A stretch of 8,009 bases of DNA. It comes from Caulobacterales bacterium. Lineage in GTDB: Bacteria > Pseudomonadota > Alphaproteobacteria > Caulobacterales > Caulobacteraceae. The stretch is from NCBI GenBank assembly GCA_947480815.1, contig CANKEA010000047.1:1-8009 (forward strand), given 5' to 3'. Below are positions 1 to 5,388 of this stretch, piece by piece (position 1 is the stretch's first letter; each line of letters begins with the position of its first letter). The notes below the pieces were generated by a model that was not told where the DNA came from, ran no database searches, and saw only the letters and a program-made list of their open reading frames with translations. The position numbers and the translations under genes are program-made.

Positions 1-42
1 GCCCTGCCGCACGTCAAGGAAGTGCGAGCGCTGAGCTTCTAA
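1..42 (+). CDS. serA: C-terminal end of an upstream gene, probably D-3-phosphoglycerate dehydrogenase (partial)
   Basis: Only the last 13 codons and the TAA stop are in the window, reading ALPHVKEVRALSF. The pattern of a short helix ending in 'LP.V..V' followed by a strand ending in 'ALxF' is what I expect at the end of the C-terminal ACT domain of alphaproteobacterial SerA, the first enzyme of serine synthesis. A perfect-stem terminator 28 bases after the stop shows that this is the true end of a transcription unit. From memory, serA lies near the imuA-imuB-dnaE2 cassette in Caulobacter, which fits the remnant just downstream. Thirteen residues cannot prove the identity; another ACT-domain protein is possible. 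Confidence 0.5.
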   Translation, partial: ALPHVKEVRALSF

Positions 43-110: not shown

Positions 111-125
111 GAACAAAAGAGGAAC
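111..125 (+). promoter_or_regulatory. LexA/SOS box (GAAC-N7-GAAC)
   Basis: The bases GAACAAAAGAGGAAC match the alphaproteobacterial LexA operator, a direct repeat GTTC-N7-GTTC seen here as its complement, with the A-rich spacer usual for strong sites. It lies 25 bases before the ATG of the ImuA-like stub, in the place expected for the promoter of an imuA-imuB-dnaE2 operon. LexA would repress here and release on DNA damage. The operator looks intact although the genes it should control are gone. Confidence 0.8.
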
Positions 126-150
126 AATTATTAACGCTGGGAACATCGCC

Positions 151-205
151 ATGCCGGGCGCATCACGCCTGCAGACCCTTCGCCGTCAGATCTCCGCGCT
201 GCGCG
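151..205 (+). pseudogene. imuA: ImuA N-terminal remnant
   Basis: An ATG at 151, preceded by GGGA about ten bases upstream, opens a frame reading MPGASRLQTLRRQISALRG. The pattern 'L..LR..I..L.G' at the extreme N-terminus is typical of ImuA, the RecA/SulA-like accessory factor of the ImuA-ImuB-DnaE2 mutasome. The resemblance stops after about 19 residues, where sequence belonging to DnaE2 begins in another frame. The stub's own frame runs on to a TGA at 250-252, giving a 33-residue product without ImuA's ATPase-like fold. The identification rests on this short match plus the LexA box upstream and DnaE2 downstream; the stretch alone would not be enough. Confidence 0.55.
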
Positions 206-570
206 GAAGATTACCGCACCACGCGCCTGTCGCTCAAACGCCATCCTTGTGAATTCTTCCGCACGCTGCTGACCTCGCGCGGCGCTGTGGCGGCCAAGGG
301 CGTGGTGTTCTCGACCCTGGAGGACGAGACCAGCCCAGCCAATATCTTGGTCTGGAAAGATTTGTTCGAGGCCAACCGGCGCCTGGTGATGACCGCCTCC
401 CTACTGGTCGTGCACGGCAAGCTGCAGCACGCCGAGGGCGTCACGCACCTGGTCGCGCAAGGGTTCGAGGATCTCAGCGACCGCCTTGTAGACCTTAAGT
501 ACGAGGGGCCTGCACCAAAATCCGCTCACGCGTCAGCGGACGCCTGACGCGCAGTCGAGATTTTCATTGG
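206..570 (+). pseudogene. dnaE2: DnaE2 C-terminal remnant (error-prone DNA polymerase III alpha-type)
   Basis: From 206 in frame 2 the sequence reads EDYRTTRLSLKRHP, the block that precedes the OB-fold in DnaE2, and continues with GVVFSTLEDETSPANILVW, the OB-fold signature. The frame stays open to a TGA at 545-547. DnaE2 normally has about 1,050-1,100 residues; only about 110 codons remain, with no polymerase or PHP domain. Two further lesions are visible. The segment between 'RTLLTSRGAV' and 'AAKGVVF' lacks roughly 25 residues, including the usual GLVLVRQRPG strand. The terminal SRDFH of DnaE2 is present at 553-567 but in frame 1, followed by TGG where a stop belongs. A GTG at 287 could open an 86-residue ORF, but it starts inside the OB-fold and has no clear ribosome binding site. 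This is a decayed gene. Confidence 0.85.
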
Positions 571-576
571 AGCACC

Positions 577-2487
577 CTACGGCATGCGAGGCCGGCGCAG
601 CGGCGTGACGTTTTCGGTCATTGGCAGGTCTATGCCGGAGCGGATCCGTTCGATCAGGCCAAACAGGGTGTCGCGTGCCCTGATCTGGTCCCCAGCCATC
701 GCTTCAGCGCGCAGGCGGTCAAGATCGTCGGCGTTGATCAGCGGCGGCACCAGGCGGGGCGAGGCTTCGACGACACCCGGCGCCCGCATACGCTGCTCCT
801 CGTTCACGTCGACGAGTTCTTCGGTGATTTTCTCCCCGGGGCGCAGGCCGATGATGCGGATCTCGATATCCTTATCGGGAACCAGGCCCTGGAGTTCGAT
901 CATGCGGCGGGCGAGGTCGACGATCTTAACCGGCTCGCCCATTTCCAGGGTCAGCACACCGGGTTCAGGCTCGGATCGCGCCGCAGACATGGCCACGGCG
1001 CGCAGTACCAACTGCACAGCCTCCGGAATAGTCATGAAGTAGCGTTCCATGTCCTCGTGCGTCACGGTGACCGGGCCGCCCCGCTCGATCTGCTGCTGGA
1101 AGACCGTTGCGACGGAACCCGCCGAGCCCAGCACATTGCCAAAACGCACGATCGAGAACCGCGTTTTGCCCTTCGCGCCGGCCTGGCGGATCAAGATCTC
1201 AGCCAAGCGCTTGGTCGCCCCCATCACACTGGACGGATTGACCGCCTTGTCCGTGGAGATGAAGGCCATGTGGGTGGCCCCAATGTTGCGCGAAGCCTCC
1301 GCCACATTGAGCGCGCCGAACACATTGGTACGAATGCCCTCGCAGGGATGGGCCTCGACCAGGGGCACATGTTTGAGGGCCGCGGCGTGGAACACCAGGT
1401 CGGGCTTTTCATCTCCGAACACTTCTTTCAGACGCTCATTATCGCGGATGTCGCAGAGCACATCCGAGCGCAAGGTTTTAGGCCAGTATTCCTCGATCTC
1501 GCGGCTAACGCGGAACAGGGCGGCTTCGGAGCTGTCGAGCAAGGTCAGGTGTGAGCAGCCGCAGGCGGCGATCTGACGGCTGATTTCCGAACCGATACTG
1601 CCGCCCGCGCCGGTGATCAGCACTCGGCGTCCGGCCACCAGGATGCGGCCGGGCTCAAATTCCAGCCCGACAGGCGGACGTGTCAGCAGCTCCTGCAGGC
1701 TGATTTCGCGCAGGTCCCCGGCAGAAACGCCGTAGGACAGCTCGATCACGGCCGGTTGGCGCAGCAGGCGAATGCCTTCGCCCTTCAATCGCCCCAGGCG
1801 TTCGGCACCCAGCGCGGTGATCGCGGCCGGCTGAACTAGGAACAGTACGGCTGCCGGACCAAGGCCGCTCTCGCGCAGGCGGGTCAACACCGCATCGAAC
1901 CTCTTAAAATCGCCCAGCACGCAGACCCCGCGTAGCTCTTCGCCAATCTCGTGTTCCTGCGGCGAAATGATGCCGACGGTGGTGTAGCGATGCAGTAGGC
2001 CACTGGGCGTTGACCGCAGGAAGGCGTCGGATTCACTGGCGGAGCCAACGATCAGCAGGCGACCGCGCGAGGTAGAAGGCCCCTTCGAGGGGCGCAGACG
2101 CAGCAGGGAATCGGTAAGCGATCCCTCGTTTAGCGCCCGGCGGGCAATGCGCAGGCTGGCCAAGAAAACGAAGTCCAAAATCATGGCCAGCAATATGGCG
2201 CGGGGTGCGCTGGTGATGGTCAGGTGTGTCACGATGGCCGTCGGGATGAACAGGGCGGTAGTTGCGGCGGCGGACCGGGCAAGACGCACCATGTCTCCGA
2301 CCGACAGGAACCGCCAGGGCGCGCGCTCGACCTGCAGAAACAGTTCAGCGACAAGGGCGCAGGCACTAAAAACCAGGGCCAGTTTGAGACTTGGGCCGCT
2401 GAGTCTGCCATTGGCCAGCGTCTCGCCGGCGACCCAGGCAAGCATGGCAAGCAACAGGTGAACCGTAATTTTGCTCGTTCTGCCCAT
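577..2487 (-). CDS. Membrane-bound nucleoside-diphosphate-sugar 4,6-dehydratase (FlaA1/WbpM/CapD family)
   Basis: This 636-residue protein has the full layout of the long, membrane-anchored dehydratases that act on UDP-GlcNAc-type sugars at the start of surface-glycan synthesis. About four hydrophobic segments lie in residues 8-115. A first Rossmann-like domain follows (LLIVGSA, 144-150), then the catalytic extended SDR domain with GAGGSIG (293-299) for NAD(P), HAAALKHVPLVE (367-378), STDKAVNP (411-418), MGATKR (422-427) and RFGNVLGS (448-455). GEKITEEL (551-558) marks the C-terminal part. Met422 replaces the usual catalytic Tyr of the YxxxK motif, as is normal in the WbpM/PglF branch, where the Thr-Asp-Lys of STDK is also important. 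The exact substrate cannot be read from sequence. The start at 2487 has only a weak AAGG upstream; Met15 is an alternative, but it would cut the first membrane segment. The gene lies downstream of moeA on the same strand, 124 bp apart, so co-transcription is possible but not shown. Confidence 0.93.
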   Translation of the reverse strand: MGRTSKITVHLLLAMLAWVAGETLANGRLSGPSLKLALVFSACALVAELFLQVERAPWRFLSVGDMVRLARSAAATTALFIPTAIVTHLTITSAPRAILLAMILDFVFLASLRIARRALNEGSLTDSLLRLRPSKGPSTSRGRLLIVGSASESDAFLRSTPSGLLHRYTTVGIISPQEHEIGEELRGVCVLGDFKRFDAVLTRLRESGLGPAAVLFLVQPAAITALGAERLGRLKGEGIRLLRQPAVIELSYGVSAGDLREISLQELLTRPPVGLEFEPGRILVAGRRVLITGAGGSIGSEISRQIAACGCSHLTLLDSSEAALFRVSREIEEYWPKTLRSDVLCDIRDNERLKEVFGDEKPDLVFHAAALKHVPLVEAHPCEGIRTNVFGALNVAEASRNIGATHMAFISTDKAVNPSSVMGATKRLAEILIRQAGAKGKTRFSIVRFGNVLGSAGSVATVFQQQIERGGPVTVTHEDMERYFMTIPEAVQLVLRAVAMSAARSEPEPGVLTLEMGEPVKIVDLARRMIELQGLVPDKDIEIRIIGLRPGEKITEELVDVNEEQRMRAPGVVEASPRLVPPLINADDLDRLRAEAMAGDQIRARDTLFGLIERIRSGIDLPMTENVTPLRRPRMP

Positions 2488-2611
2488 GCCCTAAAACCTT
2501 AAAGCCCCAAAAATTTTGCTAAAATATTGGGATTACACCTTCATTATTGACGTCTAACACGTCGATTTCGCCTAGTCGCCTCCCCATGCGACCTTGAGGC
2601 GTGCATAATGT
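2488..2611 (-). promoter_or_regulatory. AT-rich leader between moeA and the dehydratase gene
   Basis: This 124-bp gap probably carries the dehydratase promoter, but no clear -35/-10 pair stands out. On the minus strand, 11-35 bases after the moeA stop, a 6-bp hairpin (2577-2582 with 2596-2601) has no T-run and is at best a weak terminator. A 5-bp inverted repeat, GACGT-CTAAC-ACGTC, lies at 2549-2563. An imperfect AT-rich palindrome at 2506-2531 stands out from the GC-rich surroundings. Confidence 0.35.
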
Positions 2612-3832
2612 TTACGTAGGCCTATCCAATCGAAGAATGGGAACCACGGTCCCCGCCTGTAGTTTTGGCGCGCTCGCCGCCCGCGGCAAAAGCGCGCCGG
2701 CCTTGGCAAACACGCCAATCAGTGACGAATCCTGCTGTTCGAACGCGCGCACCTGAGCATGGCCTGCCTCACCCCGCGTGAATTCCGCGCGCAGCCAGGT
2801 CTCGCGCGGGCCGTTTGCCTCCAGATCGGCCTGAAGCACCGCCGCCTCCAGGTAGGGCAGCGGCTCCGCGCCGAGCATGGCCAGGATGAGCGGCCGCAGG
2901 AAAAGCTGGGCGCAAACAAAAGCTGAGGCCGGGTTACCGGGCAGGCCGAGCACGCGCCGCCCGTCGCCTAGAAGGCCAAACCAGGTCGGCTTGCCGGGCC
3001 GGACATTGATCGTTTCGACCCGCAGACGCAGTCCCAGCCTTACCAGGGCAGGCTTGACCAGGTCGTGATCGCCGACTGAGGCTCCGCCAATCGTGACGAT
3101 GAGGTCGGCCGTAGTCCCCGCGATCGCGCCGGTGATGGCGGCGGAATCATCGCCCACCTGCGGCAGGCGTACCGGAGCGCCGCCCCAGGATTCAATGAGC
3201 CCCCCCAACCCCGGGCCCGCGCTGTCAGAAATCTGCCAAGGCTGTAGAGTTTGTCCTGGTCGCGCCAGTTCCTCGCCATTGACCAGTATGGCCACGGATG
3301 GACGACGGGCCACAGCCACGGTTTCGTAACCGGCCGCCGCCGCCAGGGCTAACCGCCAGGGATCCAGTCGTTCGCCCGACGATAGAACGATCGTTCCCGC
3401 GGCCAGGTCGCCGCCGCGCGGACGGATATGGTCAGAGCCGTTTGCCGCCTTGATCGACAGTTCTTCGCCCTCGCGAACCGCCTCCTCTTGGATGATGACG
3501 CGTTCGGCACCGTCAGGGATGGGAGCGCCGGTCGATATGCGCACGGTCTGGCCGGGTTCAATGCGATCGACAAAAGGATGGCCCGCCGCGCTCTCGCCGA
3601 CGATTTTTAATCTTGCGCCAGATACGGCATCGGCGCGCCGCACCGCCCAGCCGTCCATGGCCGAGGCGTCGAAGGGTGGCTGGTCGCGTTTTGCGATCAA
3701 CGCTTGCGCCAGGGTGCGGCCCAGACCCGCGCCCAGCGGCACGGGTTCTTGCCCCAGGAATGCGGTCGCATCCAGCATGCGGGCGCGGGCGTCGAGGACG
3801 CTGAGGTTGCGGAGGGTGTCTAGGGGGTTCAT
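2612..3832 (-). CDS. moeA: Molybdopterin molybdenumtransferase MoeA
   Basis: MoeA inserts molybdate into adenylylated molybdopterin, releasing AMP, in the last step of basic molybdenum cofactor synthesis in the cytoplasm. The 406 residues match the family's usual length of about 400. Family blocks appear in order: PPFDASAMDGWAVR (52-65, Asp60 corresponding to the active-site Asp of E. coli MoeA), TGAPIPDGAERVIIQEE (101-117), RPRGGDLAAG (137-146), NGEEL (185-189), ISDSAGP (201-207), GGASVGDHD (249-257), RPGKP (278-282) and GLPGNPASA (296-304). NGEEL stands where many members have TGDEL, a conservative change. The C-terminal beta-barrel domain (about 325-406) is complete. The ATG at 3832 has only a weak AAGAG ribosome binding site. 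No other cofactor gene is in the window; the gene diverges from tRNA-Trp. Confidence 0.95.
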   Translation of the reverse strand: MNPLDTLRNLSVLDARARMLDATAFLGQEPVPLGAGLGRTLAQALIAKRDQPPFDASAMDGWAVRRADAVSGARLKIVGESAAGHPFVDRIEPGQTVRISTGAPIPDGAERVIIQEEAVREGEELSIKAANGSDHIRPRGGDLAAGTIVLSSGERLDPWRLALAAAAGYETVAVARRPSVAILVNGEELARPGQTLQPWQISDSAGPGLGGLIESWGGAPVRLPQVGDDSAAITGAIAGTTADLIVTIGGASVGDHDLVKPALVRLGLRLRVETINVRPGKPTWFGLLGDGRRVLGLPGNPASAFVCAQLFLRPLILAMLGAEPLPYLEAAVLQADLEANGPRETWLRAEFTRGEAGHAQVRAFEQQDSSLIGVFAKAGALLPRAASAPKLQAGTVVPILRLDRPT

Positions 3833-3989
3833 CTATCGACTCTTGCGGACAACGATCACTCGCCACCCTCCGCTGGACCTGTCAACCGGACCCTGCTAAA
3901 CGACCCGCTTCTCAAGCAACAGATTGAGCCTACTGGCGAACTTTCCGCCGCCTGGTTCCCTGTCTGGAAATCGCCTGAGAGGAAGGTCT
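3833..3989. other. Divergent intergenic region between moeA and tRNA-Trp
   Basis: These 157 bp must hold promoters for moeA (leftward) and for the tRNA-Trp-secE-nusG unit (rightward). I see no convincing -35/-10 pair in either direction. GCTAAAC at 3894-3900 loosely resembles the Caulobacter -10 element but has no good -35 partner. No coding sequence is supported. Confidence 0.4.
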
Positions 3990-4065
3990 AGGAGTGTAGC
4001 TCAGCTGGTAGAGCATCGGTCTCCAAAACCGAGGGTCGTGGGTTCGAGTCCCTCCACTCCTGCCA
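3990..4065 (+). tRNA. trnW: tRNA-Trp (anticodon CCA)
   Basis: A complete cloverleaf of 76 bases can be drawn. The acceptor stem AGGAGTG (3990-3996) pairs with CACTCCT (4055-4061), followed by discriminator G and an encoded CCA. The D stem is GCTC/GAGC (3999-4002 with 4011-4014). The anticodon stem TCGGT/ACCGA (4016-4020 with 4028-4032) encloses loop CTCCAAA with anticodon CCA at 4023-4025. The T stem (4038-4042 with 4050-4054) carries the TTCGAGT loop and has one T-T mismatch (4039/4053). tRNA-Trp directly before secE-nusG is a widespread bacterial arrangement, which supports the call. Confidence 0.97.
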
Positions 4066-4070
4066 CCAAC

Positions 4071-4086
4071 CGCCGGTTCGCCGGCG
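4071..4086 (+). other. GC-rich hairpin with TTCG loop between tRNA-Trp and secE
   Basis: CGCCGG and CCGGCG form a perfect 6-bp stem around a TTCG tetraloop, five bases after the encoded CCA and 27 bases before the secE ATG. No T-run follows, so it is unlikely to terminate transcription. A stable hairpin here could mark the tRNA/mRNA processing boundary or protect the 5' end of secE mRNA; that role is inferred. Confidence 0.6.
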
Positions 4087-4113
4087 AAAAGAAGAGACGA
4101 TAGAGAACGGTCT

Positions 4114-4446
4114 ATGGCGAAGAAATCGGGGTCTTCCCCGTCAGCGATTAAGAGCAGGGCGGCCAAGACAGCCGCCGCGCTCAATGCCGCCAGGCCTGCT
4201 GGCTCGGCCGTGGCTGATTCCGCCACAGCCCCAGCGCCGCCAAAGAAAAAGACCAACCCTATGCAGTTTCTGCGCGAAGTGCGCGCAGAGGCCCGCAAGA
4301 TCAGCTGGACCTCCCGCAAGGAGACCTGGATCACCTCGGTGATGGTGCTGATCATGGTGGTGATCACCGCGATCTTCTTCATGATCGTCGACTGGGGCCT
4401 CGGAACCGCCGTGGCCCAAATCCTGAAATTCGCCACCCCTGGGTGA
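4114..4446 (+). CDS. secE: Preprotein translocase subunit SecE
   Basis: SecE is the small clamp subunit that stabilises SecY in the inner-membrane SecYEG channel. The family core is clear: an amphipathic helix, REVRAEARKISWTSRKE (54-70), then one transmembrane segment at about 72-93 (ITSVMVLIMVVITAIFFMIV). This is the single-span form, not the three-span E. coli type. Single-span alphaproteobacterial SecE is usually about 60-70 residues; this one is 110 because of an Ala-, Lys- and Ser-rich N-terminal tail of about 45 residues without predicted structure. The ATG at 4114 has a weak GAGA-type ribosome binding site. Starting at Met50 (4261) would give a 61-residue protein but would cut the KKKTNP lead-in. 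The position between tRNA-Trp and nusG is the normal one. Confidence 0.93.
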   Translation: MAKKSGSSPSAIKSRAAKTAAALNAARPAGSAVADSATAPAPPKKKTNPMQFLREVRAEARKISWTSRKETWITSVMVLIMVVITAIFFMIVDWGLGTAVAQILKFATPG

Positions 4447-4454
4447 TTGAAAAA

Positions 4455-5024
4455 ATGTCCGTCGAACCCGCCCCCGCCGCGCCGTCCAACCCGCGCCACA
4501 AGTGGTACATTGTCCACGCCTACTCGAACTTCGAGAAGAAGGTGAAGGACTCGATCCTCGAACAGGCCAAGTCTCACGGCCTATCGGAGAACTTCGGCGA
4601 CATCTTGGTCCCGACCGAAGATGTGGTGGAAATCCGTCGGGGTCGTAAGGTAAACGCCGAACGCAAGTTCTTCCCCGGCTATGTGCTGGTGAAGATGGAG
4701 ATGACCGACGAGGCCTATCACCTGATCAAGAATACCCCGAAAGTGACGGGCTTCCTTGGCAGTGGCTCCAAGCCCATGCCGGTGTCGGAAAAAGAAGTGG
4801 CCCGTATCATCGGTGCCATCGAGGAGGGAGTCGAGCGCCCAAAGACCACGATCCGCTTCGAGATTGGCGAGCAGGTCCGCGTCACCGACGGTCCCTTCGC
4901 CAGCTTCAACGGTTCGGTCGAGCGGGTGGACGAGGAGCGCGAGCGCCTGTTTGTCACCGTCTCGATCTTCGGCCGCGCCACCCCGGTGGAGCTCGAATAC
5001 ACCCAGGTCGAAAAGACGAGCTGA
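4455..5024 (+). CDS. nusG: Transcription termination/antitermination protein NusG
   Basis: NusG binds RNA polymerase, suppresses pausing, aids Rho-dependent termination and links transcription to translation. The NGN domain runs from about 16 to 125 (KWYIVHAYSNFEKKV at 16-30, the signature FFPGYVLVKMEM at 72-83, NTPKVTGFLG at 93-102). A linker leads to the KOW domain (GEQVRVTDGPFASFNG, 138-153). Its 189 residues match the family. I chose ATG 4455 because GGTGA at 4442-4446 is a good ribosome binding site eight bases upstream. An in-frame GTG at 4443, overlapping the secE stop, would add four residues (MIEK) but has no ribosome binding site. The close secE-nusG coupling indicates one transcript, probably with the tRNA. 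The gene ends 13 bp from a convergent minus-strand gene. Confidence 0.96.
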   Translation: MSVEPAPAAPSNPRHKWYIVHAYSNFEKKVKDSILEQAKSHGLSENFGDILVPTEDVVEIRRGRKVNAERKFFPGYVLVKMEMTDEAYHLIKNTPKVTGFLGSGSKPMPVSEKEVARIIGAIEEGVERPKTTIRFEIGEQVRVTDGPFASFNGSVERVDEERERLFVTVSIFGRATPVELEYTQVEKTS

Positions 5025-5037
5025 GGCTGGGCCGCGG

Positions 5038-5388
5038 CTAGAGCCGCAACCCAAACCGAGGCCCGATCCACAGCATCGCCGAATAGAGCGCGATCGTCAG
5101 CAGGCAGCCCGCGCCAAGCGACGGCCAGAAGCCTGAGCCACGCTTGAGCATCAGCGGGATCAACTGGAACATCGGCAGGGACGGCAGAACGAACCAAAAG
5201 GTTCCCGTTGCATGGGCTGCCATTCGCTGGGGATCATTGGTGTCGTGCCAGAACCAGATCATGCCCAGCACCGAGATCAGCGGCAGGGAAGCCACCAGCC
5301 CGCCCAGGCCGGGCCAACGCTTGGCGATCTCAGAGGCGGCGGCAATTAGGGCCCCAGAGATCATGGCCTTGAACAGGAGGTAAAGCAT
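5038..5388 (-). CDS. Small integral membrane protein, DUF3147-like
   Basis: This 116-residue, very hydrophobic protein resembles the DUF3147 family of uncharacterised bacterial membrane proteins. Recognisable pieces are YLLFKAMISGALIAAASEIA (3-22), GLVASLPLISVLGMIWFW (30-47), TFWFVLPSLPMF (63-74) and GFWPSLGAGC (86-95). Four hydrophobic segments are visible at about 5-22, 28-47, 62-81 and 88-109, with no signal peptide and no catalytic motif. The function is unknown. The ATG at 5388 is chosen because family similarity begins there and AAGG lies close upstream. The frame stays open to 5568, but the extra 60 residues are Arg/Pro-rich, overlap the start of rplK and look non-coding. The gene lies head-on to nusG and back-to-back with rplK, inside what is usually a continuous nusG-rplK cluster. 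Confidence 0.8.
   Translation of the reverse strand: MLYLLFKAMISGALIAAASEIAKRWPGLGGLVASLPLISVLGMIWFWHDTNDPQRMAAHATGTFWFVLPSLPMFQLIPLMLKRGSGFWPSLGAGCLLTIALYSAMLWIGPRFGLRL

Follow-up and report, generated by a model that had tools for sequence, protein, structure and literature searches.

The window, by which we mean the whole stretch of 8,009 nucleotides that was analysed, opens with the 3' end of an upstream gene. Between this and a convergently transcribed dehydratase gene, it carries a LexA-type box, the start of imuA and the end of dnaE2, in that order and on the same strand. The features are as follows, with L118 denoting contig 121 (9,181 bases) of the genome G092, the nearest colinear relative in which the operon is intact.

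1-42, plus strand: 3' end of the upstream gene, putatively serA (so named in the preliminary description of this DNA from its last residues); left flank
111-125, plus strand: LexA-type (SOS) box of the form GAACN7GAAC, at a position conserved in relatives
151-201, plus strand: first 17 codons of imuA, by alignment to relatives; the open frame continues beyond these to a stop, giving 33 codons in total
200-203, no strand: junction of the first deletion, by alignment to L118; the rest of imuA, the whole of imuB and most of dnaE2 are gone
203-514, plus strand: 3' fragment of dnaE2, from the OB-fold region; the native frame is kept for 103 codons from 206
291-299, plus strand: scar of the second deletion, a single copy of a 9-bp repeat that L118 has in two copies
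515-568, plus strand: C-terminus of dnaE2, out of frame; the frameshift lies between about 515 and 531, and the normal stop is lost
577-2487, minus strand: convergent gene for a polysaccharide-biosynthesis nucleotide-sugar dehydratase (636-codon open frame); right flank

The assignment of the dehydratase is supported by a match to PF02719 with an E value of 3e-102. At 70-102, after the stop of the upstream gene, there is a perfect inverted repeat (arms of 14 bp, loop of 5 bases); it is perhaps the terminator of that gene, and a terminator scan made no call there. At some distance from the locus, a tRNA-Trp gene (anticodon cca) occupies 3990-4065, directly before secE-nusG.

The sequence of the box is GAACAAAAGAGGAAC, and it is the sole GAACN7GAAC or GTTCN7GTTC site within the window. 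By itself, such a site could be due to chance, given that 0.20 are expected per window and that 38 of 200 shuffles contained at least one; the evidence lies in its place, not in the motif alone. We fetched 14 relative loci around the cassette or its flanks and found a dnaE2 frame in 12 of them; exactly one such box is present in 11 of these 12, its first base lying 25-41 bp ahead of the imuA ATG, compared with 40 bp in the window. The twelfth locus, L050, has no box, and its contig seems to break off within imuB. The box of L118 reads GAACAAAAAAGGAAC. GTTCN7GTTC-type sites are the motif recognized by Caulobacter LexA; binding of LexA to the site ahead of imuA is predicted.

The ATG at 151 opens the peptide MPGASRLQTLRRQISAL, the 17 codons of which align with the ImuA N-termini of relatives. 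The fragment of dnaE2 is matched by the NCBIfam error-prone polymerase model PRK05672 (E 6.5e-22) across profile positions 971-1039 of 1047, with a score far below the whole-protein cut-off, as a fragment must have, and it shares up to 64% identity with the whole DnaE2 proteins of genus relatives; the Pfam OB-fold model falls just short of its cut-off (26.1 versus 27 bits). The preliminary description had identified the SOS box, the ImuA N-terminus and the DnaE2 end, and each of these identifications is upheld: the first by the place of the box in 11 of the 12 dnaE2-bearing relative loci and in L118, the second by the alignment of 151-201 and the third by the profile match. It had set the start of the DnaE2 segment at 206; the segment is there, but its homology begins earlier, at about 203. 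It had also put the two coding pieces in different frames, and indeed, the imuA frame stops after its 33 codons, while the dnaE2 frame has no ATG, GTG or TTG before 287.

Comparison with the intact operon

In L118, the end of the upstream gene is followed by the box, imuA, imuB, dnaE2, the dehydratase gene and moeA. Its imuB frame has 513 codons, and its dnaE2 frame is open over 1,186 codons and gives a single match of 1,100 columns with the DnaE2 of L046. Positions 1-200 of the window align with 149-342 of L118 (reverse strand, as throughout) at 82.7% DNA identity (E 2e-51), positions 203-299 align with 5258-5354, and from 291 on, the window aligns with 5424 on. Therefore, window 200 corresponds to L118 342, and window 203 to 5258, such that two bases in the window occupy the place of 4,915 in L118, and the net loss is 4,913 bp. 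Comparison of the window with L118 shows no clear microhomology at this join. The missing length is equally apparent from other relatives: in 11 of them, 4,977-5,562 bp separate the imuA ATG from the dnaE2 EDYR codon, versus 55 bp in the window. On the right flank, the dehydratase is colinear with, and 85% identical to, that of L118, whereas the moeA-like protein beyond it (2612-3832) is only 63% identical to its colinear L118 copy.

Additionally, the surviving end of dnaE2 is itself damaged. The L118 gene contains CGGCCAAGG twice, 78 bp apart; in the window, a single copy remains, at 291, and the 78 bp are missing, corresponding to 26 codons lost in frame between 9-bp repeats, which looks like the product of repeat-mediated slippage. 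Near 515-531 there is a frameshift, after which the conserved DnaE2 C-terminus, VSGRLTRSRDFH, is encoded at 532-567 in a different frame, and the stop that follows this motif in L118 is not retained. The small lesions and the large deletion could have arisen in any order; nevertheless, more than one event is needed because the internal deletion, the frameshift and the lost stop are present as well.

The preliminary description had attributed the locus to the removal of about 5 kb in one deletion, with early imuA joined to late dnaE2 near 196-206. The position of the join is confirmed (200-203), as is the loss of imuB and of nearly all of imuA and dnaE2 between these positions, and the size is close to the net 4,913 bp seen against L118. 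However, a single deletion as the sole event is rejected by the three further lesions in the dnaE2 fragment, which had been missed; the nature and location of the remnant, and its main cause, are borne out.

How far this comparison can be extended depends on the behaviour of the cassette across the genus. A first search found the DnaE2 end in 34 of 36 other genus genomes (all but G015 and G016), and a query with an intact DnaE2 C-terminus (P0002) matched in 72 of 75 genus genomes, the remnant itself included, but not in G015 (70% complete), G016 or G075 (93% complete). A second loss in G016 is rejected, as its contig breaks inside imuA. In many relatives, dnaE2 and the convergent dehydratase gene adjoin or lie a few kb apart. 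The end of the upstream gene, which shares 81-94% DNA identity with its counterparts, is directly upstream in L118, beside imuA in G016, and on the contig of dnaE2 in G001, G003, G007, G013, G023 and G024, where it precedes that gene by 6-12 kb or less; in others, such as G005, G010, G020 and G022, it lies far away or on a separate contig, and in G021 (contigs 4 and 122), one contig carries both flanks, some 3 kb from each other, and the other carries the cassette. Hence, an intact cassette between the same flanks, as the preliminary description had anticipated in close relatives, is found in L118 and several others but not across the whole genus. The cassette site is not fixed, and the inference of a deletion, therefore, rests mainly on L118. 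The relatives that bear names (21 loci) are mostly Phenylobacterium and other Caulobacteraceae, and their best segments are 37-53% identical, which made them of little value for the comparison.

Two further observations concern dnaE2 in the genus. Second, more distant copies (about 44-51% identical at the C-terminus) occur in, for example, G005, G012, G013 and G030. In G036 (contig 20, near 535,400) and G070 (contig 63, near 8,600; L120), a break near the 3' end divides dnaE2 between two frames, reflecting either sequencing errors or early decay.

We regard as demonstrated the pieces and their order, the missing length, the second missing segment of 78 bp, the frameshift and the lost stop. Both ends of the operon are present, in order, at the place where a relative carries it intact, and the dnaE2 end bears additional inactivating lesions. 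By contrast, little of a working cassette is left behind the box: 17 codons represent imuA and imuB together, and a broken C-terminal fragment stands in place of the DnaE2 polymerase core. We are, thus, confident that 111-568 is what remains of an imuA-imuB-dnaE2 operon, most likely through one large deletion, and we predict that it makes no mutasome, since a net 4,913 bp that are present in the nearest colinear relative are absent. A single event would have removed this DNA from early imuA to late dnaE2, with the smaller lesions presumably added to it. The box may still bind LexA, in which case it would drive a short and meaningless transcript.

Polymerases and SOS genes elsewhere, and variant copies

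The source bin comprises 1,477,905 bases in 246 contigs and is 74.6% complete, which scales to a genome of about 2.0 Mb. G015, a sister with 95-99% protein identity in all six comparable genes, scales to about 2.1 Mb, and genus members that are at least 90% complete have 3.2-6.0 Mb. The genus is probably Caulobacter or one near it, and the source bacterium is, thus, likely to be a relative of Caulobacter with a small genome. No ImuB was found in the 74.6%-complete source bin, the sole Y-family match being a UmuC; the search is able to see ImuB, as it returns weak ImuB-type matches in most relatives. Likewise, the DnaE polymerase core (PF07733) is missing from the source bin and present in the other 60 genomes searched. 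The genome search proposed in the preliminary description, thus, revealed neither imuB nor a full-length dnaE2 in the assembled three quarters.

An intact cassette in the unassembled quarter would be compatible with a dead copy here. Some relatives do carry a second DnaE2, and the bin lacks even dnaE1, which must exist, and hence large parts are missing. Against this, the sister bin G015, of which 70% is available, has no ImuB-type match and no DnaE2 end; it gives one Y-family match, scoring like the main copy of relatives and probably DinB-like, and one DnaE match, which is probably dnaE1. On balance, we consider a hidden intact copy unlikely, and the imuA-imuB-dnaE2 route of damage-induced mutagenesis has likely been lost in the source bacterium.

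This does not mean that the organism must be devoid of mutagenic polymerases. A full-length UmuC of 423 residues is encoded at 27-1298 of L097, the 3.6-kb bin contig C201; it scores 428 bits against a cut-off of 431 for the NCBIfam UmuC model, with residues 4-421 covering profile positions 2-422 of 422. The contig begins 26 bp before umuC and, thus, ends ahead of any umuD or promoter. Its GC content (0.620) and the third-position GC of umuC (0.761) fit the bin, although a contig of only 3.6 kb could be mis-binned. Relatives of this UmuC (at 42-48%) occur in 11 other genomes among 199 of the family (its own included), two of them, G008 and G084, within the genus; in G008, an S24 peptidase match lies directly upstream of UmuC, as umuD would. 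After umuC, at 1491-2077 of L097, there is a HigBA-like toxin-antitoxin pair, in which HigA is assigned by TIGR02607 and HigB by position and size only. This UmuC could supply damage-induced mutagenesis. Consequently, the reduced SOS mutagenesis that had been predicted is favoured by the lack of ImuB and of a whole DnaE2 in the assembled 75% but is weakened by the presence of a full-length UmuC.

No S24 peptidase, and hence no UmuD, was found in the assembled bin (among 11 genomes, it is missing in the source, G000, and in G015), nor was a LexA domain, which is present in 58 of 61 genomes and missing in the source, G014 and G015. Also not found in the bin are trpC, the neighbour of lexA in G009, and dnaE1, which several relatives carry 25-28 kb away from lexA. 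The absence of LexA, S24, TrpC and DnaE1 means little, because the region around lexA is unassembled, and loss of lexA as a companion event is, therefore, unsupported. G015 similarly lacks LexA, S24 and trpC, yet has its dnaE1-type match. Genome-wide decay of SOS boxes was also considered and proved uninformative: against a reversed control, the numbers of sites are 43 versus 51 in the source and 44 versus 42 in G015, and some relatives are enriched (69 versus 23 in G035, 101 versus 47 in G006), whereas others are not (65 versus 78 in G024).

The join at 200-203 is seen in the assembly only, and in a bin of 246 contigs, it might have been created by joining two distant parts of an intact cassette of a normal strain; a close relative of this DnaE2 end that is free of the internal deletion does exist (P0005, a protein of 120 residues, 90% identical to the fragment, that keeps the 78-bp segment and the normal end, encoded on a contig of 1,172 bp that covers the dnaE2 end, with the upstream part outside). 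A mis-join would not, however, also leave this fragment with a repeat-bounded deletion of 78 bp, a frameshift and a lost stop, and no further dnaE2 or imuB pieces were found in the bin. Moreover, the shifted tail recurs in a variant, P0003, which matches the fragment at 98% identity and has a single internal residue change. P0003 comprises five sequences on three contigs, with the protein of the window itself marked as a cluster member; the longest contig is of 6,295 bp and so is not the 8,009-bp contig of the window, although these contigs could come from related samples. As the same shifted tail is found in this variant on other contigs, an assembly slip is most likely not its origin, and we judge an artefact to be very improbable as an explanation of the locus.

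Age of the loss and the fall in GC

Pseudogene status is proven by the lesions, and substitution rates add no independent proof; they do, however, bear on the age of the loss. Relative to L118, 20.4% of residues differ in the fragment and 14.6% in the dehydratase. When the differences were split between branches using the window, L118 and 11 further relatives, the window branch measured 0.117 for the fragment and 0.087 for the dehydratase, a ratio of 1.34 (95% interval 0.76-2.05), with the corresponding ratio on the L118 branch being 1.46. The fragment breaks 1 of 24 columns that are invariant in 31 other sequences; in a smaller set, it breaks 2 of 44, and L118 breaks none of 42. Compared with L118, differences at codon positions 1 and 2 versus 3 number 27:37 in the fragment and 119:249 in the dehydratase (p = 0.15), and changed codons with and without an amino-acid change number 21:27 and 92:202, respectively (p = 0.10); both tests lean towards relaxation, and neither is significant. 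In pairwise comparison with L118 (NG86), dN/dS is 0.13 in the dehydratase, 0.25 in the fragment and 0.32 in moeA. Neither the branch ratio nor the codon tests give a significant signal of faster evolution in the fragment. Most of its divergence seems to date from the living gene, and as relaxation is not significant in the codons that remain, the loss looks recent on this scale of divergence.

The rate is also compatible with selection on the fragment itself, which may count against its being a remnant. Nonetheless, a new small gene at 287-547, that is, an 86-codon OB-fold fragment controlled by LexA and having an independent function, is hardly credible: the frame is open, gene-like in third-position composition, highly conserved, preceded by the box and retained in P0003 with a single internal residue altered, but it has lost 26 codons of the OB-fold region, has its C-terminus out of frame and lacks an in-frame start codon of the three types sought ahead of 287, and its conservation is equally explained by recent loss.

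Third-position GC in the source genome and its sister G015 is below that of the five other sampled genus members. In the source, overall GC is 63.4% in sampled contigs and third-position GC 0.758 (100 frames), with similar values in G015 (62.9% and 0.753; 69 frames); the third-position values in other genus members are 0.867 (G092), 0.854 (G071), 0.846 (G009), 0.881 (G005) and 0.793 (G003, from 13 frames only), all derived from unfiltered frames of at least 200 codons in sampled contigs. The same holds at the locus, where third-position GC in the dehydratase is 0.772 versus 0.874-0.973 in 19 rows from 14 genomes, and that in the dnaE2 fragment is 0.806 versus 0.952 in L118. With L118 as the reference, 18 third positions of the fragment have changed from GC to AT and one in the opposite direction. 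The codons affected by these AT-ward changes still seem constrained with respect to the amino-acid sequence, and the fall in GC of the clade therefore probably predates, for the most part, the loss of dnaE2.

This timing bears on a reported link: of the genes for DNA replication and repair, DnaE2 is reported to show the strongest positive correlation with genomic GC (PMC9927291). Loss of a known operon is in itself an ordinary type of event, and it is the timing relative to the fall in GC that merits a second look. Tentatively, and with more doubt than confidence, we suggest that a Caulobacter-like clade with reduced genomes has exchanged its mutasome, having recently lost ImuA-ImuB-DnaE2 and come to rely on Pol V after its GC content had fallen. 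If this were true, the scar would represent a dated natural knock-out, in which loss of DnaE2 follows the fall in GC and does not drive it.

Relation to known systems

To judge by titles and opening lines of abstracts, none of the papers found on loss, pseudogenes or streamlining is about a scar of this kind. The nearest described system is the imuA-imuB-dnaE2 (imuABC) SOS mutagenesis operon of Caulobacter crescentus (imuA, CC3213; imuB, CC3212), as presented in PMC1839093 and PMC7198004. The window resembles this operon in having a LexA-type box, the start of imuA and the end of dnaE2 in the same order and on the same strand; it differs in that imuB is missing, as is almost the whole of both imuA and dnaE2, and in the three extra lesions in the dnaE2 end. 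With respect to Pol V (UmuDC), the full-length UmuC of the source bin offers a possible alternative mutagenic polymerase but is not part of the locus, as umuC is on a separate 3.6-kb contig, and umuD was not seen in the bin. The source bacterium provides a natural case without ImuABC at the usual place, and with UmuC as a possible stand-in.

Finally, PMC9927291 describes parallel losses of DnaE2 and ImuB in bacterial lineages of lower GC, and the present case is akin to these in that a mutasome has been lost in a lineage of reduced GC. It departs from those cases in that the loss looks recent, the scar is readable and the genus otherwise mostly keeps the cassette. A readable and seemingly recent loss, beside a relative with an intact operon, would render the order and effect of the DnaE2-GC link testable.
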